Source: Halarcobacter bivalviorum (GTDB taxonomy: Bacteria > Campylobacterota > Campylobacteria > Campylobacterales > Arcobacteraceae). Taken from it: a DNA stretch of 64,000 nt. The stretch is from contig NZ_CP031217.1 in assembly GCF_003346815.1 (NCBI RefSeq), positions 992,001 to 1,056,000 of the forward strand. The letters are read 5' to 3'. Of this stretch, positions 1-25,336 are shown in pieces; the stretch's first letter is position 1; each line of letters starts with the position of its first letter. The notes beneath the pieces were generated by a model that saw only the letters and a list, made by a program, of their open reading frames with translations, had not been told where the DNA came from and did not search any database. Position numbers and translations under genes: made by a program.

Positions 1-1
1 T

Positions 2-8500: not shown

Positions 8501-8764
8501 GAAGAGATAGACTTTACAAACTTAAACTTAGATGGAACAGCTGGAAGTGCAGAGTTTGAGTTAACAGCAGATTTACTTAACTCTTGGGCTGGCGATAGTT
8601 CAACAAGTCTGAAACTTATTTTAGATGCAGATGATGCTTCTAAATTAAAATTTACTGATTCAAGTAATACAGTGCAAGGTGATGGAGCAAGTTCAATAAG
8701 TGCAGGAACATATACCTTAAATGATAATGGTACAACCGTAACATTAGATATTGAAATTCAATAA
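2..8764 (+). CDS. Giant RTX (calcium-binding repeat) secreted protein, 5' end outside window
   Basis: The frame is open from base 2, so the start lies upstream; about 2,920 codons are visible. The first roughly 1,800 visible residues hold many glycine/aspartate nonapeptides of the form GGxGxDxIx (for example GNAGDDTLVGGTGADTF), which in RTX proteins bind Ca2+ after export. They sit in longer modules that recur with an [IV]EN[IV]IGT...D motif. The last 900 or so residues have few nonapeptides and consist of Thr/Ser/Asn-rich beta-solenoid-like repeats (TGSGNDTVVYT, NGTGTLT). No Cys is evident. The C-terminus (TYTLNDNGTTVTLDIEIQ) resembles an uncleaved type I secretion signal. The ABC exporter, HlyD adaptor and TolC-like protein follow directly, so it is the likely substrate. 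Size and the LapD-like neighbour favour an adhesin over a toxin; no catalytic domain was recognised. The N-terminal retention module expected of LapA-type adhesins cannot be assessed. Confidence 0.93.
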   Translation, partial: GDIIVDIDSNATSNAFYGLAGDDTITEGAGSDIVEGGAGNDYIYAGTGDDIIDGDDSDVGTPDGTSDTLDFTKVLINDDTGDTRVVDAETYNGGDFTGIEIDLSDTSSQRIHSEFGTDTISNIENVIGTGKADYIKGNDADNLIEGRSGNDYLIGLDGADTFKGGDGQDTIDFSAGSQNVVVDMTKEQTVGDSNSYRVQDDGYGNKEYIDGIEHIITGSGDDTVYGDAQGNSLITAAGDDIIRGGAGSDYIDGGSEGANGDTVDFSDLNSSVTVTLNGTGTGSAISGVDTDTLVNIENVIGTSKDDIITGDNRNNTIIAGDGNDTIKGLDGKDYIDGGAGLDDTVDFSDGTQEINIDLTQADPNNRVINDGFGHSEYLDGIENIIGTNSADTIIGDSADNEFFGGQSDDTLYGNAGDDTLVGGTGADTFRAGAGNDIIYGNEQNSSSFDASRDVIDYSDVNVDMTINLQANQANGVGQGVDTLYDIQDVLGSSANDKITGKTGEVNSLFGQDGDDTFHATLDGDFIYGGSVNTGTHTDSGNDTVDYSAIDSNDGRAINVDLSRDDNDATTNNEQEVQLVGDNTKFDNLEGIENIIGTQNDDIIKGSDIATEINTLDGNKGDDTFYSSNGKDSFIGGEGVDTLDFSTNGNVSVNVDLDQDKTIDDGFGYEDYIANDIEVIIGSTNNDIIKGDSANNTLIGNSGDDSISGGSGDDNIQGGIGADTLKGDEGADTILGGADGDFIYGGEGNDILNGEAGDDTIYFDKGNDNITGGTGADTLTYEEQIITSSGITVNLEANSGQIDVGADGLDTLTDHIETIIGTGVADNFNGYTGSDAGDYVDTFKGLEGRDTFSGGKGNDYLDGGYDKDTLIFTNAQHGVDVDLSVTQNLADENSYAVQDDGFGYKDYVLNIEDIIGTNYADTLGGDSNDNSIDAGEGDDTLLLSSGLDTLNGNNGSDWISLENNQVNIDLLNNTHTYAVNDNTTIQNIENIIDSTTSTATRYMWGTHGANTFIAYDGADRLYGRDGDDLYDGGAGNDIIYSNERTASNQIGTGIDTIIGGSGNDILELRNDIAGGVSSKIILQDVSIDTNFDFVGDTNLTATTTTINLSGLDSYSGDQTFVEITDATGNTDYLYVNASGNTDIEEFRLGTASDTFVGDEASNIVNAYEGNDTILGMGGDDIINGHNGNDKLYGGTGNDIINGGNDQDTIVGGLGNDVINGGSGNDIIYDDEGIDSIDGDGGSDTIIFKDGGNGISIDLTATTNNATDSYGNLQNVREIENVTSTDYEDTITTNSSTNVIKAGNANDTIFGSVGDDNINGEGGIDLLDYSNLNGGNGVILQLGDNARIGLDNQTITSIENARGSQYDDEIIGDSGVNTLWGGDSNDTLDGGASNDTLYGDDGDDTLIGGIGVDYLYGGTNSAYTDGSTHTGDTADYTDIGNKVVINLDESGNAIASISNGNDRLFEIENLTGSAVGDELSGNSSANTLLGNAGNDTLNGEAGNDYIDGGADDDTITGGVGNDTLRGSTGNDVFVASTNDGDDNIDGGDDIDIVDYSSVTGPLDVTLNAAGGTDSLITIAGNDTLLNIEGFIGTSSNDNMVGNDENNVFEGRAGSDTLIGNAGDDTLLGGDGDDTLSGGTGNDIIDGGNDGANGDWVDYSGSTNAININLRADADHATGEGVDQIRYIENIDVSNNQNGNIVQGDANDNIFKAGTGIEDTLSYDGSTISVTIDLDAGTVSGDGDDTFSEFERLIGSNQGDILINDSVKDDTIFELFDGKGGIDTADYSASTQNITVDVNGNSSATLTVGAADDSLTNVEIIKTGLGDDTFVVTSTSGLNTLDAGNGTDTLQLSGNLDLSSVTLLNFENIVVATGDTLTLSAKDLDNQTLNIELQGNANLIIEGTLNNADFDFDNITINKTGTANGLVTLELDSTINLTSKNINGTNNILDVISVNSGTTTILESQATTLDEVNGTGSVIVEVSANSSSDFDGILKLTNPANETIKFTGSSTFTGSFGDSNVEVGTGFTLTTAIDKLDLIEVSGAGNIVATGSSTTVDLSGVSNNISFDGAVTLGNNKVSQGDIALGNSANLTIEDALDISSKTITGTGILNLQGGGTVDLSNINISTLTGNFTTATTLNGLYIDIDASASSANITINAQNSVSSIQTGSGNDIINTANGSTDIDGGSGNDTVVYTANTTLTGTLTSIETITINGSNLTSNVSNVSGATVNGTGTLTINSAGTLDASNISNNLILNSSITLSDAGIGNITVNAGQTLTADASVLNGLTINGAGNVVVTGTATSFDLTNISNDITINGDISIDNATDVSDKTIDGTGTLTLKGAGTVDLGNITVSTLNGDFDSSATTLQNLGVNLDASASSANIEIQTADGSLNISTGSGNDTVVYTSSTTLTGNLTNVENISLNNAVILTTTIAALGTIAVAETGIATVQITDASGSLNLSNISTNIILDGSVTVTSLHASVGTITTTASKTISVDADVISSKTVIGNGIVDITSGSASLIDLSNISNDIKVSSDFEISSVNNSSNSIEITASNTLSANATLINGHTINGSGTLALDGAGGVIDMSNISSVNLTADMTGNTTFNNLGIDINASSSTGNITINETAGNNLSITTGSGNDTVNLSNGNDSVELGEGSDRVNISHTNLDINDNITDSGTVGTDTLNITSSGNIDSANLIDVSGFENLNLYSGDDNISFDNLTEFNNFINEFTDIVDSGGNDTLSFGSSSISGDLDFSKLSEFENLNLSSNDDNITLSGDEPSNINGGAGNDNFTLDFANIDNFTIDGGSDTTADRVSLTGTTQNITSDTVFGHANSFTNMEEIDFTNLNLDGTAGSAEFELTADLLNSWAGDSSTSLKLILDADDASKLKFTDSSNTVQGDGASSISAGTYTLNDNGTTVTLDIEIQ
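6420..7930 (+). repeat. Repeated beta-solenoid-like modules near the C-terminus of the RTX protein
   Basis: Three related blocks are visible, beginning near 6430, 7110 and 7820. Each has a DASASSANI-like or NASSSTGNI-like segment followed by TGSGND. Between them run NISNxI and NGxGTLT-like lines. Boundaries are approximate. The repeats suggest a stalk or fold-nucleation segment, not an enzyme. Confidence 0.6.
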
Positions 8765-8775
8765 ATAGGAATATT

Positions 8776-10572
8776 ATGAGCAAAAATGAAAATATAAAAG
8801 CATTATTAAAAAAAGCCTATGAAGCTTACTCTAAAAGTGATTTAGAATCTTCTAAAAATCACTATTTAGAGGTTTTAAAACTTGATGAAAAAAATAGTGA
8901 AGCCTTAGGTAATTTAGGAGTTATTTTTAAAGCTTTAGGAGAGAATAAAAAAGCCTATGATTATTATATTAAAGCTATAAATACAAATCCTAAAAATTCA
9001 ATGACATATAATAATCTTGGGAATCTCTTAAAAGATACAAAAAACTATAAAGCTGCTTTAAAAGTTTATGCTGATGGAATAAAAGTAAATCCAAAAAATT
9101 ATCATGCTTATAATAATATTGGAATGGTTTTTGAAAACCTAAATGATAATGAAAAAGCGATACAAGCTTATAAAGATGCAGTAAGAGTAAATCCAAAATT
9201 TGATAAAGCAGTAAATAATATAGGTGTAGTTTTATACAAACAAAAAAAGTATAAAGAGGCAATAGAGATATTTAAAATAGCCCTAAATATCAATCCTAAA
9301 TATGTAGAATTATTTGCAAATATTGGAGCTTGCTATAACAAATTAAAAATGTATGATGAAGCTATTGAAAACTTAGATAAAGCAATTGAATTAAATCCTA
9401 AAAATGCAGGTGCTTATACAAACTTAGGTAATGTATACAATAAACTAAAAGATTATAAAAAAGCAGCAAAACTTCATGAAAAGGCTATAGAACTTGACCC
9501 AAAAGGTGCAAATGCTTATAGTAATGTAGGAACTTCATACAAATATTTAGGTCAACTTTCAAAGGCAATTGATTCATATAAAAAAGCTATTGAGTTAAAT
9601 CCTACTTTTGAAAATGCACATTTTGACTTAGCAACAATTCTTTTAGGAAAAGGGGAGTTAAAAGAGGGTTTTAAAGAGTATGAGTATAGATTTAGAAAAG
9701 ATGAGATGAAAGGTCATATTCTAAATAATAGAGATATCTTTTCAAAGCCAATGTTTAAAGGAGATGAAGAGCTAAAGGGTAAAACTATTTTACTTCATTC
9801 AGAGCAAGGTTTTGGTGATTCAATTCAGTTAATAAGATTTTTACCACAATTTAAAGAGAAGTTTGGATGTAAAATTGCAGTTAAATGTAGAGACGAATTA
9901 AAAGAGCTATTTAAATGTATAGATGAAATTGATATTTTAAGACATAGAAGTGAGCCAACGCCTGCTTTTGACTATCATTTATCAATTATGAGTATACCTT
10001 ATATTTTGGGTATCTCTTCAACAAAAGAACTTATAACAAATACTCCATATCTTTTTGCTACAAAAGATAAAGATTTAGAAGTTAAAGAAGAAAAAGGAAA
10101 AATAAATATTGGTATTTGTTGGTCTGCCTCAACTACTTCAGAGAGTTATGAAGAGAGAGTTTTAGGACTTGAAAAGTTTTTACCAATAATAAATAGTGAT
10201 AAAGTAAATGTTTATAATCTTCAAATAGGAGAAGATAGAAAAGAGATTGAAAAATTAGGGTTACAAGATAAAATCATTGATTATAGTGATAAGTTAAAAG
10301 ATTTTTCAAAAACAGCATCTTTAGTAAAAGAGCTTGATTTAGTTATTTCTTCTGATACTTCAGTAGTACATCTTTGTGGAGCTCTTGATGTTCCAACTTG
10401 GGTATTAGTTCCAAAAGTTCCAGATTGGCGTTGGCAAAACAAAGGTGTAAATTCAACTTGGTATAAAAGTGTTAAAATTTTTAGACAGAAGAGTTTAGGG
10501 GTATGGGATAACGTATTTCAGTCTGTTTATGATAAACTATTTTCGAATTTTAAGATAAAAATAAAAAAATAA
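8776..10572 (+). CDS. TPR protein with C-terminal GT9/GT41-like glycosyltransferase domain
   Basis: Residues about 5-320 are tandem tetratricopeptide repeats (YNNLGNLLKDTKNYKAAL and similar, at least eight copies). Residues about 338-590 resemble heptosyltransferase/O-GlcNAc-transferase-type domains: a QGFGDSIQLIRFLP motif near 345, an SSDTSVVHLCGAL motif, and a WRWQ...STWY...FRQ...GVW tail typical of TPR-glycosyltransferase fusions. There is no signal peptide or membrane segment, so it should act in the cytoplasm. It starts 11 nt after the RTX stop, with AGGAA upstream of the ATG, and precedes the exporter genes. The inferred role is O-glycosylation of the RTX protein before export. The fold assignment is fairly secure; substrate and sugar donor are unknown. 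Confidence 0.8.
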   Translation: MSKNENIKALLKKAYEAYSKSDLESSKNHYLEVLKLDEKNSEALGNLGVIFKALGENKKAYDYYIKAINTNPKNSMTYNNLGNLLKDTKNYKAALKVYADGIKVNPKNYHAYNNIGMVFENLNDNEKAIQAYKDAVRVNPKFDKAVNNIGVVLYKQKKYKEAIEIFKIALNINPKYVELFANIGACYNKLKMYDEAIENLDKAIELNPKNAGAYTNLGNVYNKLKDYKKAAKLHEKAIELDPKGANAYSNVGTSYKYLGQLSKAIDSYKKAIELNPTFENAHFDLATILLGKGELKEGFKEYEYRFRKDEMKGHILNNRDIFSKPMFKGDEELKGKTILLHSEQGFGDSIQLIRFLPQFKEKFGCKIAVKCRDELKELFKCIDEIDILRHRSEPTPAFDYHLSIMSIPYILGISSTKELITNTPYLFATKDKDLEVKEEKGKINIGICWSASTTSESYEERVLGLEKFLPIINSDKVNVYNLQIGEDRKEIEKLGLQDKIIDYSDKLKDFSKTASLVKELDLVISSDTSVVHLCGALDVPTWVLVPKVPDWRWQNKGVNSTWYKSVKIFRQKSLGVWDNVFQSVYDKLFSNFKIKIKK

Positions 10573-10584: not shown

Positions 10585-12672
10585 TTGGAAGAGACTATTA
10601 GTAGAGACGAATATCCCTTAATATATTCATTAAAATATGTGCTAGACTTTTATTTTGGGGATATTTCTTTAGAAACAATATTAAATATTAGTGCTTCTTC
10701 AAGGGAAGGTTTTACAGAAGAGCTTGCCATTGATGTTGCAAATGAGGTTGGACTTACTGCAGTTTCTAAAAATATAGAAGCAGGAGATATCCCTGCTCAC
10801 TTTTTCCCTTGTATTATTTTTGATAAACATGATAAGCCTTTTATTCTTTTAAAAAAAGATAGAGATGTATATCTATTTGATCCTATTGCAAATAAAGAAA
10901 TAAAAGAAAATAAGAGTTTTTTAGGTAATTTCAAAAAAGCAATTCTTATATTCAGAGACCCCAAAAAAGAGAAGTTAGTAGAATCAAGTAGAACAAAAGA
11001 TTGGTTTTGGTCTCCTGTTAAAACTTTTTGGCGTTCATATGTTGAGATAGGATTTTTAACTATTTTTATTAATATGTTTGCCCTTGCAGTTCCTCTTTTT
11101 ACTATGAGTGTATATGATAGAGTAGTTCCAAATAATGCTACGGAAACACTTTTTGTACTTGCAAGTGGAGTTATTATAATTTTACTTTTTGATGTTTATT
11201 TTAAAAGTGTAAGAAACCATATTATTGAAAATGTTGGCAAAAAATTAGGTGTTTATTTAGAAGAAGAACTAATGAAAAGAATGCTTAAAATCAAATCTGA
11301 GTATGATAATATGCTTATTGGTTCAAAGGCTAATCTTTTTAGAGAACTACATCAAATAAGAGATTTTTTTGCCACAAAATCTATTTTACAAGTAATTGAT
11401 TTACCATTTTTCTTTATTGCTTTACTTGTAATATATCTTATCTCTCCAGCAGTTGCTGCTGTACCATTTATAGTTGCTATAGTTATTGTACTTTTTAATT
11501 ATCTAATGCAGAAACCAATTGAAAATCTTAGTAAAAAGAATGTTGAAAATGTACAAGCTAAAAATTCATATTTAGTTGAAACAATTCAAGGAAGTGAGAT
11601 AATAAAACTTACAAATGCCTCTTCAACAAAACTATTTAATTGGAGAAATATAATTGCTAAAACAGACTCTATAAGTCAAAGAATTCAATCTTTAAATGTA
11701 TTTTCAATGAATCTTTCTCAAACAGTTGTTCAGTTTGTGACGATGATGGTTATTGTTGTTGGAGTATTTGAAATTGCTTCTAATAATCTTACAGTTGGAG
11801 GACTTATTGCAGTAACTATTCTTTCTAGTCGTGCAATGGTTCCAGTAATACAAACTTCAATGATGGTAATTAGATTTAAAGAGATAAAAGAGTCTTTAAA
11901 TAATATAAATGAGTTCTGGCATCTACCTTTAGAAAATGATAATAATATGGAAATAGGTATTGGAAAAATAAAAGGTGAAATAGAGTTTTCTAATGTGGAG
12001 TTTTTCTATAAAAATAGTAAATATCCATCTTTAAAAGATTGTAATCTAAAAATAAAACCAGGTGAAAAAATTGGAATTATTGGACAAACTGGTGCTGGAA
12101 AAACAACTTTTTTAAGACTTCTCTCTGGTCTTGATAGTGCAACAAGTGGAAATATATTCTTAGATGGGCATGAGATTTCAACAATGCACCCAATTGAGAT
12201 AAGACAAAATATTGGAGTAATGACTCAAGAGCCATTTTTATTCTCAGGAACTTTAAAAGAGAATATTGAGTTATCAAATCCAATAAGTAAAGAAAGAATG
12301 ATGGAGCTTATTAGATTAACTGGTTTAGAAGAATTAGTTAAAAAAAGTGGACAAGGAGACGCTTTACAAGTAGGGGAAAGAGGAAGTAATCTCTCTGTAG
12401 GGCAAAGACATCTTGTAGCTCTTGCAAGGGCAATTTTGAATAATCCTCCAGTACTTATTTTAGATGAACCTACAACTGGACTTGATGTTGGATTAGAGAA
12501 AAAACTAATTAGTCATTTAAAACAATTAATGAAAGATAAAACACTATTTGTAATTACACATAGGTTTGCAGCTTTAGATTTAGTAGATAGAGTTATTGTT
12601 TTAAATAATGGTCAAATTGTTGCAGATGGACCCAAAAATAAAGTATTAGCAGCACTTCAAGGAAAAAGGTAA
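10585..12672 (+). CDS. Type I secretion ABC transporter, LapB/RtxB-like, with C39-like domain
   Basis: This is an inner-membrane ABC exporter of 695 residues, usual for the family. Residues 1-130 form a C39-peptidase-like domain without the catalytic Cys motif, as in exporters of uncleaved RTX substrates. Residues about 150-430 hold the transmembrane helices (FLTIFINMFALAVPLF, VIIILLFDVYF and others). The ATPase domain has a Walker A GQTGAGKTTF near 500, a signature LSVGQRH near 602 and a Walker B VLILDEP near 622. The start is a TTG at 10585 preceded by AGGAA; no in-frame ATG fits better. It lies 12 nt after the glycosyltransferase and 3 nt before the HlyD gene, so the genes are almost certainly co-transcribed. 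Confidence 0.93.
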   Translation: MEETISRDEYPLIYSLKYVLDFYFGDISLETILNISASSREGFTEELAIDVANEVGLTAVSKNIEAGDIPAHFFPCIIFDKHDKPFILLKKDRDVYLFDPIANKEIKENKSFLGNFKKAILIFRDPKKEKLVESSRTKDWFWSPVKTFWRSYVEIGFLTIFINMFALAVPLFTMSVYDRVVPNNATETLFVLASGVIIILLFDVYFKSVRNHIIENVGKKLGVYLEEELMKRMLKIKSEYDNMLIGSKANLFRELHQIRDFFATKSILQVIDLPFFFIALLVIYLISPAVAAVPFIVAIVIVLFNYLMQKPIENLSKKNVENVQAKNSYLVETIQGSEIIKLTNASSTKLFNWRNIIAKTDSISQRIQSLNVFSMNLSQTVVQFVTMMVIVVGVFEIASNNLTVGGLIAVTILSSRAMVPVIQTSMMVIRFKEIKESLNNINEFWHLPLENDNNMEIGIGKIKGEIEFSNVEFFYKNSKYPSLKDCNLKIKPGEKIGIIGQTGAGKTTFLRLLSGLDSATSGNIFLDGHEISTMHPIEIRQNIGVMTQEPFLFSGTLKENIELSNPISKERMMELIRLTGLEELVKKSGQGDALQVGERGSNLSVGQRHLVALARAILNNPPVLILDEPTTGLDVGLEKKLISHLKQLMKDKTLFVITHRFAALDLVDRVIVLNNGQIVADGPKNKVLAALQGKR

Positions 12673-12675: not shown

Positions 12676-13950
12676 ATGAATAATAAGTTTTTTGAAGAGA
12701 CTAAATGGAACTACTATGTATCAGTTGTTCCTATAATGTTATTTTTTCTTGCTTTTATTACTTGGTCTTTTTTTAGTGAAATAGATGAAGTTGTAAGAGG
12801 TGCTGGTAAAGTTGTTCCCTCTTCTCAAACTAAAGTATTACAAAACCTAGAGGGTGGAATTATCTCTAGTATAAAAGTAAGTGAAGGTCAAAAAGTCTCT
12901 AAAGGAGATGTGATTTACACTCTTTCAAATGAGTTTTTTAAAGCTGATTTAAAATCAAAAGAGATAGATTTATTAGCTTATAGAGCAAATATTATAAGAC
13001 TTGAAGCTTTAATTGATGAGAAAAGCTCAATAGAATTTCCCCAAGAACTTTTAGAAAAAATTCCAGATATTGTAGAAAATGAAAGAAGAATTTTTTATGA
13101 AGATTTTAACAGTTCTATTACAAAAATAGAAATATCAAAAGATCAATTAAAACAAAAAGAGTATAAGTTAAAAGAAGCTCAAAGTAAATTTGAGAATTTA
13201 ACTTTAGAATTAAATCTTGCACAAGCAAATATGAAAATTTTAGAATCTTTATATATTAAAAAAGTTGTTTCTAAAAAAGAGTATTTAGCTGAATTATCAA
13301 AAAAACAAAATATTGTAACAAAACTTTCAGAGACAAGAAACTCTATTCCAATTATAAAAGAAGAGATTGAAGAGGCTAAAAAGAAGATACAAACAGTAAG
13401 ATCTGAAATAAGAACAAAACATCTTCAAAAATATTCAGCTTTAAAAGCAGAAATAAGTAAATTAACAGAAAAAAATAAAGCAAATGAAGATAGAGAACTT
13501 AGAAAAGAGGTTACTTCTCCTGTAAATGGAATTATAAATAAATTATATTTTTATACTGTTGGTGGAATTGTAAAACCTGGTGATAAAATGGCTGAAATTA
13601 CTCCACTTGATGACTCTTTAACAATTGAAGCAAGAGTAAATACTTCAGATAGGGCACAAATTTGGGAAGGACAAGATGTTTCTGTAGAAATTACAGCTTA
13701 TGATTTTTCTAAATTTGGTTTATTAAAAGGGAAGTTAATATCAATCTCACCTGACTCTTTTGAAGATAGAAATGGTAATATTTTTTATTTAGTAAAAGTA
13801 AAAGCAAATCATGATCAATTTGCTCCAGATTTACCTATTTTACCAGGGATGATTGCAAATATTAATATTTTAACTGGTAAAAAAACTATTTTACAATACA
13901 TAATTAAACCTTTAAAAGATGTAAGTAAAAATGCATTAAGTGAACAATAG
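12676..13950 (+). CDS. HlyD-family type I secretion adaptor (LapC/RtxD-like)
   Basis: This is the periplasmic membrane-fusion subunit linking the ABC exporter to the outer-membrane channel. One N-terminal membrane helix (about 15-35) follows a short cytoplasmic tail. The lipoyl-like motif GKVVPSSQTKVLQNLEGGII is typical of HlyD proteins, followed by long coiled-coil helices (about 140-260) and a C-terminal beta-barrel region (VTSPVNGIINKLYFYTVGGI). The length of 424 residues is normal. It ends the first gene run; 110 bp of AT-rich DNA precede the next gene. Confidence 0.92.
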   Translation: MNNKFFEETKWNYYVSVVPIMLFFLAFITWSFFSEIDEVVRGAGKVVPSSQTKVLQNLEGGIISSIKVSEGQKVSKGDVIYTLSNEFFKADLKSKEIDLLAYRANIIRLEALIDEKSSIEFPQELLEKIPDIVENERRIFYEDFNSSITKIEISKDQLKQKEYKLKEAQSKFENLTLELNLAQANMKILESLYIKKVVSKKEYLAELSKKQNIVTKLSETRNSIPIIKEEIEEAKKKIQTVRSEIRTKHLQKYSALKAEISKLTEKNKANEDRELRKEVTSPVNGIINKLYFYTVGGIVKPGDKMAEITPLDDSLTIEARVNTSDRAQIWEGQDVSVEITAYDFSKFGLLKGKLISISPDSFEDRNGNIFYLVKVKANHDQFAPDLPILPGMIANINILTGKKTILQYIIKPLKDVSKNALSEQ

Positions 13951-14060: not shown

Positions 14061-15014
14061 ATGTTTAGTTTTTTTAAGTTCTTGCAGAAATTTTTTAAAG
14101 ATTTAAAAAGTAATAAAGGTTTATGGTTTACAACTTTAGCTTTTGTTTCAGTTACAGGTATTTTTTTGTGTTTATATATTCTTACAAACATGACAGAATC
14201 AGTTTCAAAAGAGGTATATGAAAATATCTCAAAAAATTATAATAAAAACTATAAAAATAGAGTTCTTAAAAAAGAAGAGAACTTACAAAAGATTATTCTA
14301 TCATTAAAATCAAATGAAGAGTTAATAACTAATATTGAAAATAACAACCTTGTTGTTGTTGGAGAAGAGGTTGCTTTATTTAATGATACTTTCAAGAAAA
14401 CAGGTTTTACAAAAACTCAGTTAAGCTTTTATCCTGTTATAAATCAAGTTAATCAATATAGAAATAGTATTAATACTGTAATAAATTCAAAGAATAAAAT
14501 CTTTGGATTAGAAATATTATTAGATGGTATTTTTTATGTTTATATTGAACCAATTCTTAAAGATGATAGACTAATTGGTGTCTTAGAATTAAAAGAAGAA
14601 GTACATATTTTCAAAAATGAGTATTTAAAAGATGATTTAATTTATATGTTCTTACTTGAAGAGAGAATGTTAAATAAATTATCAATACAAACAAGAGGAG
14701 ATAATTACAAAGAAGTTATTGACTCTGTTTATGTTGAAGCTTCAAAATATGATAGTCAATTTTTTGCAAAAATTATTGAAGCTGGAAAAGATGAATATAC
14801 TTTAATGTTAGAGAGAGGTTATTCAGTAGATGATACTTATTTCCGTTCAGCACAAAAGGTATCTGATATAAATGGAAATATTGTAGGTGTTGTTTTAATA
14901 GGGGAAACAGTAGAAGGAAGTGGAGCTTTTGTTAATATTGTTGATAATATGACAAAAACAGTTACAACAGTTGCACTTGGTTTAGTAATTTCAATCTTAC
15001 TATTTATGTTTTAG
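14061..15014 (+). CDS. Cache-like periplasmic sensor protein without cytoplasmic output domain
   Basis: The 317-residue protein has a short cytoplasmic start, a membrane helix (about 22-42), a periplasmic domain of about 250 residues, and a second helix at the very C-terminus (VALGLVISILLFMF), ending right after it. The periplasmic part (NKIFGLEILLDGIFYVYIEPILKDDRLIGVLELKEE, SDINGNIVGVVLIGE) resembles the ligand-binding half of chemoreceptors and double-Cache sensors. No HAMP, kinase, methyl-accepting or GGDEF domain follows. It lies 14 nt before the MotA-like gene. The inferred role is to sense a periplasmic signal and pass it laterally to the channel or secretion proteins. Family assignment is moderate. 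Confidence 0.6.
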   Translation: MFSFFKFLQKFFKDLKSNKGLWFTTLAFVSVTGIFLCLYILTNMTESVSKEVYENISKNYNKNYKNRVLKKEENLQKIILSLKSNEELITNIENNNLVVVGEEVALFNDTFKKTGFTKTQLSFYPVINQVNQYRNSINTVINSKNKIFGLEILLDGIFYVYIEPILKDDRLIGVLELKEEVHIFKNEYLKDDLIYMFLLEERMLNKLSIQTRGDNYKEVIDSVYVEASKYDSQFFAKIIEAGKDEYTLMLERGYSVDDTYFRSAQKVSDINGNIVGVVLIGETVEGSGAFVNIVDNMTKTVTTVALGLVISILLFMF

Positions 15015-15028
15015 AGTGAAGGGACTAA

Positions 15029-16174
15029 ATGAGACGGATTAAAATATTAAAGATTTATTTTATCTTTATTCTATTCTTAGTATTTTTAGTTTTTTCAAAT
15101 ATTCAATTAATTACTACTTTCTTTATGGCGACATTAACTTTTAATATCGCTATTTTGACAATATTTTCAATTGGTTTATTAATACTTTATCAAGCTGCAA
15201 TAAAACTTACTATGCTTTCTGGTACTTTTGGTATTTTAGCTTATAAAAAAGGTAAAGCTTTAGAGTTTTATTTAAATGGTATTACTGGAATATTCCCTGC
15301 AACAATTGCTCATATGTTTAATAAAAGAGCTAAGAAAGGGGTATTATATTTTACTCAAAATGAAGCAAAAGATGTAAGTGAATGGTTAGGAGAACAATTT
15401 TTCAATCAAAAAGGGTATACAAACTTTTTCGTTGGAACTTCTCTTATGTTAGGACTTTTTGGAACATTTACAGGTCTTTTAGTTGCAATTGATGAAATGG
15501 GAGCAATTATTTTATCTTTTGGTGGAGATGATATTGACATTGGTGAAGTAATGACTAAGTTTTCTGGACCATTAGGTGGTATGTCTATTGGATTTGCTTC
15601 TTCATTATTTGGGGTTGCTTCTGCTGTTATTTTAAATGTTATGCAATATATTCTTACTAGAAACCAAGCTGCTTTTATGCATGATGTTGAAGATTGGATG
15701 AAAGGTAAAATTATTGAAACTCAAAGTTCAGAAATGCTTGAGAGTTTACAAGGTGCAGATTTAGCTGGATTAAGAACTACTTCTCGAACAAGTTCAGAAC
15801 AAGGTTTACTAAGTGCTGGATTCTTAGATGTTTTTATTGATACAATGGGTGATTTTACAGAAAAACTTGATAAATCAAATAAAGCTTCTGAAGATTTACA
15901 TAAACTTATTAGTCAAAATATTGCTCAAGCAAGTAGAACTTCAGAAAAAGAGTCAGTTTTATTAGAAAGTATTGTAAATAACTTAAGAGAATTAAATGTA
16001 AATCAGTTTTCAAATGCTTCTATGATGGAAGAGTCTTTACAAGAAATTTCAAATGTAATTTTAGCAGAGCATAGATCTGTTAAAAAGAATTTAGCTTTAC
16101 AAGAAGAGAATAATAAGTTATTAAAAGAGTTAATCAATAGAATTGAAAAACTTGAAATAAATGATAAAAAATAG
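15029..16174 (+). CDS. MotA/TolQ/ExbB-like ion channel subunit
   Basis: Four hydrophobic segments are visible: about 6-28, 31-57, 132-157 and 185-210. The last two (GTSLMLGLFGTFTGLLVAIDEM and GGMSIGFASSLFGVASAVI) match the conserved channel-lining helices of the MotA/TolQ/ExbB family. The region after about 260 is charged, probably helical, and cytoplasmic. These proteins form a pentamer around a MotB/ExbD-type dimer and use ion flow to drive mechanical work across the periplasm. The next gene encodes exactly such a partner. The pair is not flagellar: no flagellar genes are near, and it sits between type I secretion genes. TolQ or ExbB identity is unlikely because no tolR, exbD or tonB gene is present. 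Confidence 0.82.
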   Translation: MRRIKILKIYFIFILFLVFLVFSNIQLITTFFMATLTFNIAILTIFSIGLLILYQAAIKLTMLSGTFGILAYKKGKALEFYLNGITGIFPATIAHMFNKRAKKGVLYFTQNEAKDVSEWLGEQFFNQKGYTNFFVGTSLMLGLFGTFTGLLVAIDEMGAIILSFGGDDIDIGEVMTKFSGPLGGMSIGFASSLFGVASAVILNVMQYILTRNQAAFMHDVEDWMKGKIIETQSSEMLESLQGADLAGLRTTSRTSSEQGLLSAGFLDVFIDTMGDFTEKLDKSNKASEDLHKLISQNIAQASRTSEKESVLLESIVNNLRELNVNQFSNASMMEESLQEISNVILAEHRSVKKNLALQEENNKLLKELINRIEKLEINDKK

Positions 16175-16189
16175 TTAGGTTTAGTATAA

Positions 16190-16921
16190 ATGGCAAAAAG
16201 ATGTGAAGACGAGTTTAACCCATGGCCATCATTCGTTGATATTTTTTCATCGGTTATTCTAGTAATGCTTCTATTTTTATTAGTTGTACTAGTAAATTTA
16301 GGGTATTACGCTCAATTTAAATATAAAGTATCATATACAGGAACTATTGCAACAGATGATTTAATAGTTAATGATAATCCAAGTAGTGGTACAACAAAGT
16401 TATATCAAGAAAGCCAAGCTCAACCTAATAAAAATATATCAATGATGCAACAAGAGATTATTAGACTTAGAAAAATTGTTGAAGAAAAAGTAGTAAAAGC
16501 AAAAGAGAAAGAAGAGTCAAAAATAGAACATGGTGGAATAGATGTTGCAGATAGAGATGATAGTGATAAACCATCAAAACAGACTTTGATTAGCACTGAG
16601 GATTATTATATTGTTACTTTTAAAGGTAATGAAATTTTCTTTGATACAGCAATTATTAAAGAGCTTAAAACCTTTATTGAAGATATTAAAAAGAAATATA
16701 AAAAACATCAAATTTTAATTACTGCTGCAGATGTTCAAGGACAAGCTAGTGCAACAGTAGCAAAACAGATCTCTTTAGCAAGGTCAATTGGTGCAAGAAA
16801 TCTAATTAGAAAATTTGGTTATGAGAAAAAAGATGTAAGGATTGATTTATTGGCAAGTACAGAAATAAAAGAAGAGATTGACAAACAAAATGGTTATCTT
16901 GTAATTAGGATAAAAAGATAA
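16190..16921 (+). CDS. MotB/OmpA-like partner of the ion channel
   Basis: The N-terminus (NPWPSFVDIFSSVILVMLLF) places an Asp at residue 17 just before a single membrane helix (18-38), matching the proton-carrying Asp of MotB, ExbD and TolR. A coiled/linker region (about 85-125) follows. Residues about 140-243 look like a diverged OmpA/MotB peptidoglycan-binding domain: ILITAADVQGQASATVAKQISLARSIGARNLIRKFG occupies the place of the usual TD..G....N..LS..RA motif. Binding to peptidoglycan is therefore plausible but not assured. It lies 15 nt after the MotA-like gene and its stop overlaps the TolC-like start (TAATG), so translation is coupled. Confidence 0.8.
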   Translation: MAKRCEDEFNPWPSFVDIFSSVILVMLLFLLVVLVNLGYYAQFKYKVSYTGTIATDDLIVNDNPSSGTTKLYQESQAQPNKNISMMQQEIIRLRKIVEEKVVKAKEKEESKIEHGGIDVADRDDSDKPSKQTLISTEDYYIVTFKGNEIFFDTAIIKELKTFIEDIKKKYKKHQILITAADVQGQASATVAKQISLARSIGARNLIRKFGYEKKDVRIDLLASTEIKEEIDKQNGYLVIRIKR

Positions 16922-19899
16922 TGAAGAAAATTTTGATTAAATCTTTTATAGCTTTATCTTTTGTTACTTCTTCTTTACTTGCACAAGTTGAGCAAGTTGA
17001 AATTGATCCAAAACTTTTAGTAAATGAAAATAAAAAACTTTTACAAGAGAACAAACTTAATCAGATAGAGGGACAAGAAGACTCTTTAGATGCAATAAGT
17101 AAAGATAACTTAAACACAATAACAAGTATAACAGAAAAAAAAAGTAATAAAAAATTACAGGGTTTAGATACTTCTGTTTATAAAAAAGTAAAATTAATAG
17201 ATGCAGTGTTAGAGACTCTTTCTCAAAGTGAAATTTTAAAATCTTCAAGAGAAAATGTAATACAGTATGAATTGAAACTAAAAAATGCAATGGCTGAATA
17301 TTATCCTACTATTGATTTTGAATATGTAAGAGGTAGAACACGAAGTAAACCAGGAGATGATGAAGAGACTAAATTCAAATTTTATAATGATGAATACTAT
17401 AAATTTGTATTGAGACAAAATTTATATTCTGGTGGCTCTACAAACTATATGGTTAAAAGTGTTGCAAAAAAACTTGAAGTAGCAAAAAATCAATATAAAA
17501 TAAAATTAGATGCAGAGATAAAAAAAGCTATAAAAGCTTATTTTGATGTAGTATTTGCAAATCGTTCAGTAATGGTAAATGAACGAAATATGAAAAAATT
17601 AAATAGAATATTAGAGATTGTAACTATTAAATATGATAATGGTGCAGCTTCAATAGGAGATTTAACATCAATAAAAGCAAATGTTGCAAATGCAATGACA
17701 AAACTTGTGAAAGTTAAATCTAAATTTATAGAGTCTTTACGATATTATGAATATATCGTTGGAACAAGCTTTGAAAAAACTCTTCCCTTTGAAAAGAATT
17801 TTGATATTAAAATAGATGAGTTTGATAAACTTTATGAAAGAGCTTTAGAGAATAACAAAAATCTAATAAATTACTATAAAAGTATTGATGCTGAAAAGTT
17901 CAAGCACAAAAGTATAAGAGGAAAATTTGAGCCTAAAATTGATTTTGAGCTATCTTATCAAGAGACTTTTGATAGTGAAGATATTGTAAATGATGAACAA
18001 GAACAAGATATAAATGGAAAAATCAGAGTTTCATATAATCTTTTTAATGGTGGAAGAGATAAAAATAGAGTTTTAGAAGTTAATAGTACGATTAGAGATT
18101 TAAACTATAGACTTGAAGAAGAGAAAAAGAAGTTAAAGTGGAATTTATCAAAAACTCATACTTCAATCACAACAGTTAGTGACGCTTTAAAAAGTACCAT
18201 AGAAGAGGTAGTTGCTTCAAGAAAAATGGTTTCTTCATATTGGGAAGCTTTTAAATTAGGAGAACAAGACCTACAAGCTTTACTTCAAGGACAAAAGCAG
18301 TTAAATGCAGCAGAAACAGAAGTTGTTAATTTTGAGAAAAATCAAGTTAATGATTTCTTCTCTATTTTAGAATATACAGGTGATTTATCTGCCTTTTTTG
18401 ATGTTGACCCAGAAAATCCTAAATTTATAGATTTTTCTAAGAGTGATTATAAAAAAACAGTAGTTGCAAAAGATGGAGAAAAAATCTCTTTAAATTTAGA
18501 AGAGGATAAACCAAAGAAAAAAGAGATAGAAAAAGAAGAGGTAAAGCAGATAGTTATTCCTGAACTCTCTTTAGAAGAAAAAATCAATAACTTTATAAAA
18601 GAGTTTAACTCTTTCAATGATGAAAGTTATATGATAAAAGTTGATAGTTTCAGAAATATTTATGACGCCTTTGCTTTTATAAAAGATAAAAAAATAGATA
18701 AAAACTCTTTCTCTTTTGATACTCTTGATAAACTTAAAATTAAGAATATCATAGTTCATAATAATTTCAAAGATGAAAAACTTGCACAAGAGTATATTGA
18801 AAAATTTAGAATAGAGAATAATATTAAAGAAGAGTTATCTGCAATTAAAGTTAAAGAAGTTAAGTCTTTATATAATAGTTATTTAGCTGGTTTAGAAATT
18901 GAAAAACCAAAAGCAAAAGTAAAAATTGTAGAGAAAATAAGACAAGAGAAACAAAAAGAAGAGTTTTTACCAAATAAACAATTTAAAGAGAAATTCTTTA
19001 GTTCAAATGAAGAGTTTTATACTATAAATGTCTCTTCTTTTACTACTAAAAAAGAGTTAGAAAACTTCGTTGTTTCAAATGGTATTTATGAAAATGTATT
19101 TTTCTTTAAATACTTTAGTTCAGTAGAACTATATAAGTTAGTTTTTGGAGTTTATTCAAATTATGAAAATATCGAAAATGATATTAATGAATTAGCTTTA
19201 AAAAATAATGGTATTTTCCCAATTGTAGAAAAAATAGGAAATATAAAAGAGCAATTTAAAGATAATCTTGATTTAAATATTGAAAAGAGAAAACCAAAAG
19301 AGTATGAATATATTTCATTAAAAGATTTAGAAAAACAGAAGAAAAAAGAAGAAGCTTTAAAAAATGAAATCTTAATTAAAGAAGAGAAAGAAAAACAAGA
19401 AGCTCAAAGATTAGAAGAAGAGAGACTAGCAAAGCAAAAACTTTTAGAAAAGCAGGAAAAAATAGTTCAAGAAAAAAAACTTGCAGAAGAAAAAGCAGAA
19501 CAAGAAACTCTAAAACAAGTTGATGAAGTAGAAGAAAAAGTTAATAATATAGAAAATAAATTAGCAATAGAAGAGATTGATTTATCAGGAAAAAAGAAAG
19601 AGCAAAAAGAGATAATCCCTTATACTAAAAGAGTAGAACTTTTTGAAAAAGAGTTTGCCCAAGCAGATGGGAATAAATATACTTTGCATCTTACAACGAT
19701 TAAACCTGATGAAATAACTTGGTATAGAAAAAGATTTACTTTAGAACCATCTCATATTGCAATTACAGAAGGAAATAAAACAAAGATTTATTTTGGGATT
19801 TTTGATACGGAAGAAGAAGCTATTAATAAAATAAACTATCTTCATCCTAAAATTTTTGAAGCTAATCCAAAAGCTAAAAAAATAGGAAATATTAGATGA
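16921..19899 (+). CDS. TolC-like outer-membrane channel with long coiled-coil/SPOR-like extension
   Basis: A signal peptide (MKKILIKSFIALSFVTSSLLAQ) precedes an outer-membrane-efflux domain at about 65-480 (YPTIDFEYVRGRTRS, VRQNLYSGG-like and VSYNLFNGGRDKN lines, two long helical stretches). Ordinary TolC/LapE proteins end near 450-500 residues; this one has 992. The extra 500 residues contain three diverged repeats resembling SPOR domains (YMIKVDSFRN..., YTINVSSFTTKK...YKLVFGVYSNYENIENDI, YTLHLTTIKP...TKIYFGIFDTEEEAINKI). A highly charged coiled coil (about 800-890) lies between the second and third. SPOR domains bind denuded peptidoglycan, so the extension may tie the channel to the cell wall. 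The SPOR call rests on pattern only. Confidence 0.8.
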   Translation: MKKILIKSFIALSFVTSSLLAQVEQVEIDPKLLVNENKKLLQENKLNQIEGQEDSLDAISKDNLNTITSITEKKSNKKLQGLDTSVYKKVKLIDAVLETLSQSEILKSSRENVIQYELKLKNAMAEYYPTIDFEYVRGRTRSKPGDDEETKFKFYNDEYYKFVLRQNLYSGGSTNYMVKSVAKKLEVAKNQYKIKLDAEIKKAIKAYFDVVFANRSVMVNERNMKKLNRILEIVTIKYDNGAASIGDLTSIKANVANAMTKLVKVKSKFIESLRYYEYIVGTSFEKTLPFEKNFDIKIDEFDKLYERALENNKNLINYYKSIDAEKFKHKSIRGKFEPKIDFELSYQETFDSEDIVNDEQEQDINGKIRVSYNLFNGGRDKNRVLEVNSTIRDLNYRLEEEKKKLKWNLSKTHTSITTVSDALKSTIEEVVASRKMVSSYWEAFKLGEQDLQALLQGQKQLNAAETEVVNFEKNQVNDFFSILEYTGDLSAFFDVDPENPKFIDFSKSDYKKTVVAKDGEKISLNLEEDKPKKKEIEKEEVKQIVIPELSLEEKINNFIKEFNSFNDESYMIKVDSFRNIYDAFAFIKDKKIDKNSFSFDTLDKLKIKNIIVHNNFKDEKLAQEYIEKFRIENNIKEELSAIKVKEVKSLYNSYLAGLEIEKPKAKVKIVEKIRQEKQKEEFLPNKQFKEKFFSSNEEFYTINVSSFTTKKELENFVVSNGIYENVFFFKYFSSVELYKLVFGVYSNYENIENDINELALKNNGIFPIVEKIGNIKEQFKDNLDLNIEKRKPKEYEYISLKDLEKQKKKEEALKNEILIKEEKEKQEAQRLEEERLAKQKLLEKQEKIVQEKKLAEEKAEQETLKQVDEVEEKVNNIENKLAIEEIDLSGKKKEQKEIIPYTKRVELFEKEFAQADGNKYTLHLTTIKPDEITWYRKRFTLEPSHIAITEGNKTKIYFGIFDTEEEAINKINYLHPKIFEANPKAKKIGNIR

Positions 19900-22115
19900 A
19901 AAATGTTTTAAATAAGTTTGATAAACAAAAAGTTAAAAACTTAAATAAACTTATTGATACAGGCTCATCTAATACAATTGTTATCTTAAGTTTTTTTGCT
20001 TTTATTTTTTTTATAACTTCATATATATTTTTTAAAGAGCATAAAGCAAAATTAGCAGAAGAAAAGATTACAGCATATCATTTAAATATTAATTATCTTA
20101 ATTCAAAATTAGAAAAAAATATATTAAACCATAATATTACAAAAATTGAAGAAGAGATTCAAAATCTATATAAAACAGGTCTTTTTGAATCAATAGTTCT
20201 TCAAAATGAAAAATATATCTTTGATAAAAATACTCTAATAAACAATACAGCTGGTTTTGATGATAAATCATGGAATTTAGCAGATGTTATAGTAGATATA
20301 AGAAATGGTTCTATAAGAAAGATAGAAAACACTTCTTTATATAGATTTTATCCTTCGGCTACCTATGATATAGAACAAGTGGTGAAAATCAGATATCAAC
20401 TTTACAAAAATAAACAGATTAGAAGTTTTGTAACAGAGTTAAATTTTTCAAACTTTAACATTGAAAAAAACTATAAAAGTGAAAGCTCTTTTATAAGTTT
20501 AGACTTTAAACTGCCAATAGAAAATGAGACTATAGAGCATGAAATAAAAGTAGAAAATCAAGTAATTGCAATAATAACTTATAAATTTAATCTTCAAGCT
20601 TTACAACTTGAAATAAAGAATTTTCTTTTTAATCTTATTCTTTTTAATATAGTTATGTTTTTACCTATTCTTTTTGTTATTGGTTTTTATCATAGATTTC
20701 TATTTAAAAAACATGTTACTAATCCTGTAAATAACTTAAATAAATATCTTGATAATATTTTAGAAGATAAATTTTCAATGCTTGATAAAAAAGAGTATGA
20801 AGGTACAAAAGAGCTAAAAGAACTTACTTCAAAAGTAGCAAAAATTTCTGGAAAAATTGCCTCTTTAAAAAATGAATTAAATATGAATAAAGAGACTTTA
20901 GAACTAAAAGCTTCAATGGATACTTTAACTGGTTTACCAAATAAAAATATTTTTGATTTTGAGATTAAAAGTATGTATGTCTCTTCTATCTCAGGGTATG
21001 TTTTTATTTTAAGAATTGAGAAATTAACTCAAATTAGTGAAAAGTATGATACTAGTTATATTAATAATTTTATTCAAAGTTATGTAAGTATTGTAAAAAG
21101 AGTAATCTCTTCTATTCATAAAACTGATATTACATTATATAGATTTTATGGCTCTAAATTTGCAATTATTGCAAAAAACCTTGAGATGCAAGAAGCACAA
21201 AAATTATGTGAAAAAATTATCTATGAATTACATCAAAATCTAAAAGATATTTATGATATCCCAGAAGATTTAGTTCAGCTTGCAGGTACATTTTTTGATA
21301 TTTATGGAAGTCTTGATTCTCTATTAAAATCGACAGATAAAGCTTATGAAATCTCTAAGAAAAAAGGTAAAAACTCTTATCATATAATTGCAGAAGAAGA
21401 GTTAGAAAAAAACTTCTCTAAATTGGATGCAACAGTAGTAGATATTATAGAAAGAGCAGATTTTAATCTAGCCTTTGTATTAGATTCATACTCTTTTGAT
21501 GAACCTGATAAAATAGTTATGAATGAAGCTGCTCCTCAATTATATGATAGAGAAGGGGAGAAGTTAGCAATTGGTTCAGTTATCTCTGTTGCTGAAAAAC
21601 TTCAAATAGCACATAAGTTTGATAAGCTAGTTATTGTTAAAACTATTGCTCATATAAGAGGAAATGATTTACAACATGCAGTTGCAATAAATCTTTCAAT
21701 GAGTTCTATAAGTGACTCAAGTTTTATGAAATGGCTTGAAACAGTACTTCAAGCAAATAAAGATATTCTAGATAAAATAGTCTTTAGTATAACTTCATAT
21801 ACAGCATATTTAAATAAAGAGATTTTTGTAATGTTTATTAGAAATATACATGAAATAGGTGCAGGAATTATATTAAAAAGATATAAAACAGATGAGTATC
21901 CATTAGAAGAGTTAGAAGGTCTACAAATTGATTATATAAGAATGCATCAAGATTATACTTCTAATTTTACAAATGATATGGTTAAAAAACATAAAGTTAA
22001 AAATATTTTAATTTTTGCAGAGTTAAATGGAATAAATGTAATTGCAGATAGTGTTAAACTAGATTCTGATTATGATTTATTAGAAAGATTAGGAACATAT
22101 GCTACAAGTAGATAG
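19896..22115 (+). CDS. LapD-like membrane protein with degenerate GGDEF and EAL domains
   Basis: The architecture is a membrane helix (about 27-47), a periplasmic domain of about 195 residues, a second helix (about 246-268), a HAMP-like linker, a GGDEF domain (MDTLTGLPNKNIFDFEI start, about 340-480) and an EAL domain (about 500-739). The GGDEF active-site loop reads RFYGSKFAII, so diguanylate cyclase activity is lost. The EAL domain keeps NEAAPQL and AINLS but lacks DDFGTG and the usual KID lysine line, so phosphodiesterase activity is unlikely. This is the layout of LapD, an inside-out c-di-GMP receptor that sequesters the protease LapG and keeps RTX adhesins on the surface. It overlaps the TolC-like gene by 4 nt. 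No LapG-type cysteine protease is encoded in the window. Confidence 0.78.
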   Translation: MKNVLNKFDKQKVKNLNKLIDTGSSNTIVILSFFAFIFFITSYIFFKEHKAKLAEEKITAYHLNINYLNSKLEKNILNHNITKIEEEIQNLYKTGLFESIVLQNEKYIFDKNTLINNTAGFDDKSWNLADVIVDIRNGSIRKIENTSLYRFYPSATYDIEQVVKIRYQLYKNKQIRSFVTELNFSNFNIEKNYKSESSFISLDFKLPIENETIEHEIKVENQVIAIITYKFNLQALQLEIKNFLFNLILFNIVMFLPILFVIGFYHRFLFKKHVTNPVNNLNKYLDNILEDKFSMLDKKEYEGTKELKELTSKVAKISGKIASLKNELNMNKETLELKASMDTLTGLPNKNIFDFEIKSMYVSSISGYVFILRIEKLTQISEKYDTSYINNFIQSYVSIVKRVISSIHKTDITLYRFYGSKFAIIAKNLEMQEAQKLCEKIIYELHQNLKDIYDIPEDLVQLAGTFFDIYGSLDSLLKSTDKAYEISKKKGKNSYHIIAEEELEKNFSKLDATVVDIIERADFNLAFVLDSYSFDEPDKIVMNEAAPQLYDREGEKLAIGSVISVAEKLQIAHKFDKLVIVKTIAHIRGNDLQHAVAINLSMSSISDSSFMKWLETVLQANKDILDKIVFSITSYTAYLNKEIFVMFIRNIHEIGAGIILKRYKTDEYPLEELEGLQIDYIRMHQDYTSNFTNDMVKKHKVKNILIFAELNGINVIADSVKLDSDYDLLERLGTYATSR

Positions 22116-22123: not shown

Positions 22124-22924
22124 ATGTATAAATATTTATTGGTTTTTGTATTAGTTTTTTTTACAGGTTGTTTTAGTAGTAAAAATCTTTCAAACAATAT
22201 AGAGAAATTAGATGATAAAAATAGTACAAAAAGAGTATATAAAGATATCTCAAAAGATGCAATCTTTGAAGCTGCAAAAAAGATATTTATCTTAACAGGA
22301 GGCTCTGAATTTAGGATTGATTCATATAGAGACTCTTTAATTGTATCAAAAACAAAACTATCTTATTATCCTTTTTATTCTCATGTTTCTGAAGATAAAT
22401 GGCAAATCTCAATAGAAGAAAAAGAGAACTCATCATATGTAAAAATTTTAGCTAAAAGAGTAAATAACTTTGATGAAAAAAATCCCTCTTATTTAAGTAG
22501 TAGCCTACATGAACTACTATTTGAAAGAATAGAGTTTTATTTAGGTTTAAAAGATAGTTGGAGTAGCTGTTTAGTTGATTTCTCTTTAGATGATGCTCTT
22601 TGTGATGTAATTGATTTAAAAACATATGCTACACCTACTAAAGAAGATGTACTTAAAGATATTTATATCTCTCAAAGAAAACCAAGTAAAAAGCTAATAG
22701 ATACAAAAGATATTTTATCAGAAGATATCTCTTTCTCTGTTGATGAACAAAGTGAAGATATCCTTTCACAAAAAGATGATATTGATGCAGACTCAGAGAC
22801 TAGAGAATTTGATGCAGAAATTTTAGAATTAGATAAAAAAATTAATAATAATTTAGATAAAACTTTAGATAAAATAGAAGATAGTCCTGAAGATAAAGAA
22901 GAAGCAAATGAGAGTATTAATTAA
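22124..22924 (+). CDS. Predicted lipoprotein of unknown function
   Basis: A lipoprotein signal peptide with lipobox FFTGC (Cys16) is followed by a folded region to about residue 150 (KDISKDAIFEAAKKIFILTGGSEFRIDSYRDSLIVSKTK) and an acidic, low-complexity C-terminal half. No known domain was recognised. It starts 8 nt after the LapD-like gene and overlaps the next gene by 17 nt, so it belongs to the secretion operon. A role as an outer-membrane accessory to the exporter is only a guess from position. It lacks the Cys-His-Asp arrangement expected of LapG. Confidence 0.7.
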   Translation: MYKYLLVFVLVFFTGCFSSKNLSNNIEKLDDKNSTKRVYKDISKDAIFEAAKKIFILTGGSEFRIDSYRDSLIVSKTKLSYYPFYSHVSEDKWQISIEEKENSSYVKILAKRVNNFDEKNPSYLSSSLHELLFERIEFYLGLKDSWSSCLVDFSLDDALCDVIDLKTYATPTKEDVLKDIYISQRKPSKKLIDTKDILSEDISFSVDEQSEDILSQKDDIDADSETREFDAEILELDKKINNNLDKTLDKIEDSPEDKEEANESIN

Positions 22925-23897: not shown

Positions 23898-23973
23898 GAC
23901 CCCGTCGTCTAGTGGCCAAGGACGTCAGGATTTCCTCCTGAAGACGGATGTTCGAATCATCCTGGGGTCGCCA
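23898..23973 (+). tRNA. tRNA-Glu (anticodon UUC), intact, at the left end of the integrated element
   Basis: The cloverleaf folds fully. Acceptor GACCCCG pairs with TGGGGTC (one G-T), anticodon stem TCAGG with CCTGA around loop ATTTCCT (anticodon TTC), and T-stem GGATG with CATCC around TTCGAAT. The discriminator is G and CCA is encoded (23971-23973). The 3' half from the anticodon arm on is duplicated with changes at 34074-34120, marking this gene as the integration site. The present 3' half was probably supplied by the element. Confidence 0.95.
23927..23940 (+). other. attL core in the anticodon arm of tRNA-Glu
   Basis: The 14 bases AGGATTTCCTCCTG are identical at 34074-34087. Beyond them the two tRNA 3' halves differ at five positions, four of which are compensatory pairs in the T-stem. 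Crossover inside this block, rather than in the T-loop, leaves each T-stem intact. Confidence 0.7.
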
Positions 23974-24023
23974 ACTATTTTATGGACTTTCTAGCTAATT
24001 TAAGTTTTATTAAAACCTATTGT

Positions 24024-24044
24024 TTCCCACCTATTTCCCACTTA
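24024..24044 (+). repeat. Left copy of terminal 21-nt direct repeat (candidate recombinase arm site)
   Basis: It contains two TTTCCCAC/TTCCCAC units about 11 nt apart. A 19/21-identical copy in the same orientation lies at 33930-33950. It is 50 nt inside the tRNA and overlaps the stop codon of the leftmost gene. Confidence 0.65.
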
Positions 24045-25219: not shown

Positions 25220-25220
25220 T

Positions 25221-25329: not shown

Positions 25330-25336
25330 GATATGA

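Follow-up and report, generated by a model that had tools for sequence, protein, structure and literature searches.

Why should a type I secretion locus carry genes for an ion channel and a membrane sensor? The question is raised by a locus of Halarcobacter bivalviorum that lies in a stretch of 64,000 nucleotides, referred to here as the window (G000:C1:992001-1056000, within the single 2.68 Mb chromosome). Between the HlyD gene and the TolC-like gene of a type I secretion system (T1SS) with a giant RTX substrate, three genes encode a membrane sensor with a double Cache (dCache) fold, a MotA/TolQ/ExbB-like channel protein and a SiiA/MotB-like protein. We propose, with a probability of about 0.58, that the three proteins work together in the inner membrane as one module of a type I exporter for giant adhesins, an ion-driven and sensor-gated device that would hold or release the adhesin without LapG cleavage.

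An earlier note, made from the sequence of this DNA, had described at 14061-16921 a Cache sensor without output, a MotA/TolQ/ExbB-type channel and a MotB-like protein with an aspartate ahead of its helix (D17) and an OmpA-like tail. Coordinates, strand and order, with the trio between HlyD and TolC-like genes, were confirmed, and all three assignments are borne out by the results below. The novelty that this note implied for a stator in a T1SS did not hold. The kind of system is known, since SiiA and SiiB have already been described: in the available excerpts of two papers (PMC6272769, PMC12607715) they appear as a proton channel of the Mot/Exb/Tol type in the T1SS of Salmonella pathogenicity island 4 (SPI4), which controls the surface retention of the adhesin SiiE, this retention following the proton motive force. 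With its MotB-like domain nearest to SiiA, the window trio is a Campylobacterota version of SiiAB plus a sensor gene, and less surprising than the note held. New are the conserved dCache protein without output as a third part, the substrates of 4,176-13,089 residues and the contrast in LapG-type sites within one genome. Among the open papers listed, no link of SiiAB-like genes to Campylobacterota, or of a Cache protein to such a pair, was visible.

The three proteins between HlyD and TolC

The MotB-like protein carries Asp17 at the start of its transmembrane helix in 37 of 37 aligned rows, window included; in SiiA the critical residue is Asp13. The single transmembrane helix (residues 11-44 approximately) is followed by a linker and by a peptidoglycan-binding-type OmpA-like domain at 132-243. 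The structure model has a predicted local distance difference test (pLDDT) score of 73.1 over the whole protein and mostly above 80 in the domain. The closest Protein Data Bank (PDB) entry to this domain is SiiA 6qvp, with a Foldseek E-value of 4e-7 and SiiA at ranks 1-4. A second structure comparison gave the same entry Z 13.8 and a root-mean-square deviation of 1.9 over 98 residues, the next entry scoring 11.8, and the flagellar MotB of Helicobacter pylori stood behind SiiA both times (rank 5 in Foldseek, rank 9 in the Z comparison). Arg198 is invariant in the MotB-like family. Nothing usable came out of searching the PDB with profiles of the MotB family and of the Cache family.

Single-sequence family scans gave the trio almost no names, and relatives were therefore brought in. 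Alone, the window MotA-like protein matches PF01618 weakly (E 0.051), while 20 of the 29 proteins of its family reach this Pfam model with an E-value of 0.1 or lower and the member from Sulfurospirillum cavolei (L133) lies above the curated cut-off. In hhalign comparisons the family profile met Campylobacterota ExbB over the channel helices with P 2e-6, and TolQ and flagellar MotA less strongly (P 5e-4). The protein has about four hydrophobic transmembrane regions and a C-terminal tail, short in the window (381 residues) and up to about 470 residues longer in distant relatives (855 residues in all); the channel-helix motifs are invariant in the family alignment. A search of the profile against the PDB found 8vvn at E 0.026, behind a coiled-coil match of similar score. 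This entry is annotated as a MotA/TolQ/ExbB protein, and we take it to be ZorA, which would share with the window family a cytoplasmic tail on the MotA-like protein. Channel-helix motifs and a single-helix partner with an aspartate are features common to the 5:2 ion motors ZorAB, MotAB, TolQR, ExbBD and GldLM; the window pair differs from them in standing in T1SS loci, rather than in flagellar, Tol, Ton, gliding or defence context, and in having a sensor gene.

Another PF01618 protein of about 370-460 residues belongs to a second conserved MotA-like/MotB-like pair in other Campylobacterota (L177-L184, e.g. L180:6001-8278). It was considered and rejected as a source of the window MotA; profiles of the window families gave no match to it. 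The MotB of this pair carries 'YADLMAGLLFVFILLIGAIV', and the four regions in which open reading frames (ORFs) were inspected each showed a MotB-like gene next to it. Profiles of HlyD, TolC and the full exporter gave no match in the eight regions, which held one short ABC ATPase.

That the window pair is a stray flagellar or Tol/Exb paralogue, merely located in this locus, is hardly credible. The genome has six other PF01618 places, as such an origin would suggest, but the family of the window MotA occupies a single place there, and all 50 other loci preserve its gene order (see below). T1SS or adhesin genes, not flagellar ones, stand beside the pair, and the MotB domain is nearer in fold to SiiA than to the H. 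pylori flagellar MotB.

The Cache protein has predicted transmembrane helices at about 20-45 and at 297-317. The second of these forms its very end and is one of the regions best conserved in the family. Between the helices the model (pLDDT 84.7) shows a double Cache fold, two PAS-like lobes on a long helix; there is no cytoplasmic output domain. Nearly all PDB matches of the model in Foldseek and VIA-align are Cache-type ligand domains (VIA Z up to 11.6), with low Foldseek TM-scores, mostly 0.2-0.4 of the query. Pfam dCache_3 matches 26 of the 38 proteins of this family with E-values no higher than 0.1, the window protein not being among the matches listed, and the relative L125 lies above the Pfam cut-off.

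A likeness between sensor and channel was also seen. Six of the same 38 proteins also match PF01618 when E-values up to 0.1 are admitted. Among eight scanned singly, the C-terminal helix was matched in three (L138:16797-17762, E 9.8e-5 and 22.6 bits with the cut-off at 22.9; L133:16549-17511, E 0.0014; L135, E 0.009) and the N-terminal helix in two others; hhalign of the C-terminal helix with the last ExbB/TolQ helix was weak (P 0.005). Because two relatives match through the N-terminal helix, hydrophobic bias is possible, and the idea of the C-terminal helix as a copy of the final ExbB/TolQ helix is retained as a mere lead. A more specific proposal, possible though tentative, is a ligand-gated, ion-driven latch. 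Here the dCache protein would put a stator-like helix into or beside the MotA ring, so that a periplasmic signal sets the ion flow and thus the hold or release of the adhesin. Such a latch would do the work of LapD/LapG without proteolysis, and one cell would run the two kinds in parallel on different adhesins.

Gene order in other genomes

The window MotA has relatives in 37 of the 104 family genomes and in 28 of 397 sampled genomes of the phylum. Two short peptide patterns, which may overlook relatives outside Campylobacterota, were used to scan named genomes and returned 44 loci, each under a Campylobacterota title. The nearest relatives in named genomes are from Arcobacteraceae, and a MotA with 94% identity was found in a metagenome-assembled genome (MAG) titled 'Campylobacteraceae'. 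One MAG titled 'Helicobacter pylori PMSS1' (L118) has an Arcobacteraceae-type locus, and L107 is titled Sulfurospirillum; these titles look wrong.

Gene order was counted in 50 loci besides the window, 36 from the family and 14 from outside, using profiles derived from the former. The MotB gene stands immediately after MotA in every one of the 50, so the arrangement is not due to chance, and TolC comes next in 48. The other two, G147 and G339, have a gene with the adhesin N-terminal module after MotB instead of TolC. In G339 this gene is cut at the contig end; in G147 it encodes 8,265 residues and is followed by TPR and ABC genes, with a divergent TolC gene before the Cache gene. The Cache gene is present in 49 loci, directly before MotA in 44, and the single miss is a locus cut by a contig end. 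In the 44 named loci, largely the same genomes, MotB was found 44 times, TolC 42 and Cache 43 times, the misses lying at contig ends. Of the 29 family loci whose stretch extends 5.5 kb or more ahead of MotA, 26 include the ABC and HlyD genes, divergent in L060 and L063; HlyD, ABC and TPR of G044 are 13 kb off on the opposite strand. Five of the six genomes with the genus label g41, Sulfurospirillum cavolei included, have the order MotA-MotB-TolC-TPR-Cache-giant RTX-ABC-HlyD on one strand, and the sixth (G331) has that of the window. The Cache-MotA-MotB-TolC order, which the earlier note proposed to search for, thus recurs widely, with the trio in T1SS loci and not mostly away from them (the exporter is unlinked or far in G042 and G046 only). 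By gene order in the 50 loci, such loci include as a fixed part a stator-like pair together with a periplasmic sensor of its own. On a 121-kb Arcobacter plasmid (L276, CP146529.1) the locus was seen with a 25.7-kb gene and IS3 transposases nearby; the trio is annotated there as hypothetical and the ABC gene appears in the annotation as two separate pieces.

The TolC-like protein of the window and its relatives in L032-L067 have a C-terminal extension of several hundred residues (total length up to 1,403 residues), and in the window copy the tail has a sub-threshold SPOR match. Together with the peptidoglycan-binding-type domain of MotB this tail would suit a module that mainly fixes TolC to the peptidoglycan, with ion flow opening the wall as in Tol-Pal. 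Such a role is very unlikely, as five g41 loci keep the trio although their TolC (458-464 residues) has no long tail, and as it leaves the sensor unexplained.

Of the 36 family loci, 26 have a LapD-like GGDEF-EAL gene in the block; the view of the others is limited by contig ends and stretch length. With the dCache part, this gene would fit a touch or tension sensor, in which adhesin load on the wall-bound MotB arm alters the ion flow, and surface contact is passed on to cyclic di-GMP (c-di-GMP) by the dCache and LapD-like proteins. However, neither the distant group of named loci (L125-L139) nor the five joined g41 loci showed a LapD-like gene behind the trio; it is therefore not needed for the core role, and we consider this sensor function quite unlikely. 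For the LapD-like protein of the window, the Pfam LapD periplasmic domain was unmatched at E up to 0.1.

LapG-type sites and the hold on the adhesin

The RTX substrate ORF of the window encodes 8,997 residues (about 925 kDa) with 97 GGxGxD motifs and no cysteine. Thirteen channel-linked adhesins with complete N-termini measure 4,176-13,089 residues and share an N-terminal module of about 120 residues; the longest, from G036 (L233, L232, L038), has no cysteine. A fourteenth (G091) is open-ended with at least 13,793 residues, likewise without cysteine, and was left out of the N-terminal counts owing to its incomplete N-terminus. Cysteine is absent from 13 of the 14, that of G242 having one.

These N-termini were scored within 300 residues for [TAP]AA[GV], which we take to be the LapG cleavage motif. 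The window adhesin has no such site in its first 300 residues, and no AA pair precedes residue 837. Two other LssB exporters lie above the cut-off in the same genome, both without the channel pair, and their presumed substrates, of 1,287 and 2,264 residues, carry AAAG at residues 113 and 148. One of them, that of exporter B (C1:2424284-2431075, L257), has a long Asp-Thr dipeptide run after the LapG-type site.

The same difference was found between genomes. The non-channel LssB loci taken were A and B of the own genome, G242, two of G321, two of G338, G042 C5, G044 C13 and the upstream one of G302. Six gave a large substrate-like ORF with a complete N-terminus; G042 C5, G044 C13 and the second of G321 gave none, and the G302 ORFs (1,122 and 1,016 residues, no site) were left out as fragment-like. 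G042 C15 and G046 C15 are channel-type exporters and did not serve as controls. The motif occurs in the first 300 residues of 5 of 6 non-channel substrates versus 1 of 13 channel-linked ones (Fisher p 0.003), and the lone channel-linked site is PAAG at residue 20 in G321, outside the region where the others lie. Between residues 80 and 200, none of the 13 channel-linked substrates has a site (Fisher p 0.0005 against the non-channel set).

LapG itself is present in 15 of 18 channel genomes, none having been found in three. Out of 33 LapG places above the cut-off in the 15 genomes, one lies within 30 kb of MotA, beside a second exporter, and five are on other contigs. In the own genome the sole PF06035 (LapG) place is 367 kb from the window locus, the canonical LapG-LapD pair standing at 639-642 kb (L069:9380-12254), apart from all three LssB exporters.

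Compared with the Lap system of Pseudomonas and others (LapA-LapB-LapC-LapE with LapD/LapG) and with the Dvh system, the window locus is alike in its LssB-type T1SS, giant adhesin and LapD-like GGDEF-EAL protein. It differs in having neither a nearby LapG nor a LapG-type site in the N-terminus of its substrate, and an ion-channel-like pair instead. DvhD of Desulfovibrio vulgaris, a LapD-like receptor, has a periplasmic dCache domain according to the excerpt available (PMC13090378); that domain sits inside the c-di-GMP receptor, whereas the window dCache is a separate protein without output.

With SiiAB the window shares a MotB-like and a MotA-like protein inside the T1SS locus of a giant calcium-binding adhesin, a SiiA-type peptidoglycan-binding domain, a single transmembrane helix near the N-terminus (14-38 in SiiA; PMC12607715, in excerpt) and a substrate N-terminus without LapG-type site. 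SiiE is reported not to be proteolytically processed (PMC6272769, in excerpt). Different are the additional dCache membrane protein, which the excerpts on SPI4 do not mention, the RTX substrate in place of the Ig-repeat SiiE, the gene order and the phylum; Arcobacteraceae loci moreover have the long-tailed TolC and the LapD-like gene, and the MotA tail is longer in some relatives.

An ion-driven unit could alternatively add force, beyond that of ATP, to move a very long polypeptide through ABC, HlyD and TolC. The channel-linked substrates are indeed huge beside the two others of the own genome, and the TolC gene stands directly after MotB in nearly all loci counted above. To our knowledge, however, LapA-type giants elsewhere are exported without such a channel, and in G338 a 3,111-residue substrate adjoins an exporter that has no channel module. 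In the precedent, SiiE is still secreted without siiA and siiB (PMC12607715, in excerpt). A motor for export is thus unlikely, and retention or release is favoured over export power by the Sii precedent together with the missing LapG-type site.

The pair is most likely an ion-driven adhesin holder, given the analogy to SiiAB and a substrate without LapG-type site. The MotA-like and MotB-like proteins would form an ion channel of the SiiB/SiiA type, presumably 5:2 and proton-driven with Asp17 as ion site; SiiAB is counted among the pentamer:dimer motors in the excerpt of a 2025 paper (PMC12204202). The MotB arm would extend to the peptidoglycan next to the TolC channel. The dCache protein may act as a periplasmic ligand sensor whose membrane helices lie beside the channel and gate it. 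Ion flow would then let the periplasmic arm grip or free the conduit, or the N-terminal module of the adhesin inside the conduit, and an adhesin of several thousand residues could be kept on the surface or let go without LapG cleavage.

Several observations weigh against this reading. In shuffled N-termini a site is expected in 0.4 of the 13 channel-linked substrates and in 0.7 of the 6 others; its absence from the former is about at composition level and therefore unremarkable in itself, and it is the presence in the other substrates that stands out. Sequences within each set are related, so that the p-values overstate independence, and G338b, one of the six controls, has no site. Profiles made from MotB family sequences fail to find SiiA, the link being one of predicted fold. 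SiiA binds peptidoglycan via R162 and R167 (PMC6272769, PMC12607715, in excerpts); R198 and R203 would be the equivalents of these residues, R203 matching R167 solely by its distance of 5 from R198 and being Lys or another residue in distant relatives. The matching exporter lies about 100 kb from the channel genes in G042 and on another contig in G046. Finally, given the LapD-like gene here and in 26 of 36 family loci, c-di-GMP may still matter.

How the proton flow of SiiAB holds the adhesin is termed unclear in a review (PMC12607715, in excerpt), and a further version, distant, conserved in many genomes and equipped with a sensor, is new material on this point. Its comparison with SiiAB could show the invariants (Asp17, Arg198, the channel motifs, the N-terminal adhesin module) and a natural trigger. 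The results suggest as a rule that a giant T1SS adhesin is retained by one of two means, a LapG-cleavable plug or an ion-driven module, and not by the two together; the module is worth testing because Lap-type systems occur in the same cell.

Gene block of the window

The genes of the block are given in Table 1. A start of the RTX gene at 551, as assumed earlier, is wrong, since the frame leaves the window upstream. The Cache gene begins 110 bases further on from the end of HlyD. Spacings within the trio are 14 bases (Cache to MotA) and 15 bases (MotA to MotB), and the overlap of the MotB-like gene with the TolC-like start, already pointed out in the earlier note, amounts to one base, the last of the MotB stop codon.

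Table 1. Genes of the secretion block in the window, with the evidence for each assignment
Feature	Position in the window	Strand	Remarks
Giant RTX substrate gene, 3' part	1..8764	+	Whole ORF C1:973771-1000761, start outside the window
TPR protein	8776..10572	+	Kept in the locus
T1SS ABC exporter, LssB type, with C39-like domain	10585..12672	+	TIGR03375 above its cut-off
HlyD-type periplasmic adaptor	12676..13950	+	TIGR01843 above its cut-off
Membrane dCache sensor, 317 residues	14061..15014	+	Predicted fold, transmembrane prediction, conservation
MotA/TolQ/ExbB-like channel protein (SiiB position), 381 residues	15029..16174	+	PF01618 in relatives, hhalign
SiiA/MotB-like protein, 243 residues	16190..16921	+	Asp17, single transmembrane helix, domain fold
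TolC-like outer membrane channel, long C-terminal extension	16921..19899	+	Sub-threshold SPOR match
LapD-like GGDEF-EAL membrane protein	19896..22115	+	Family scans
Protein with lipoprotein-like start (by eye), no family match	22124..22924	+	Conserved; accompanies the locus in Arcobacteraceae
Sel1/TPR-like repeat protein	22908..23849	+	Named by eye and from weak family matches; last conserved gene of the block

Behind the block, at 23898-33936, a tRNA-Glu stands beside ORFs named by eye as TrbL-like (26481-27500), relaxase-like (27919-29367) and integrase-like (32824-33936). This stretch is perhaps an integrated element.

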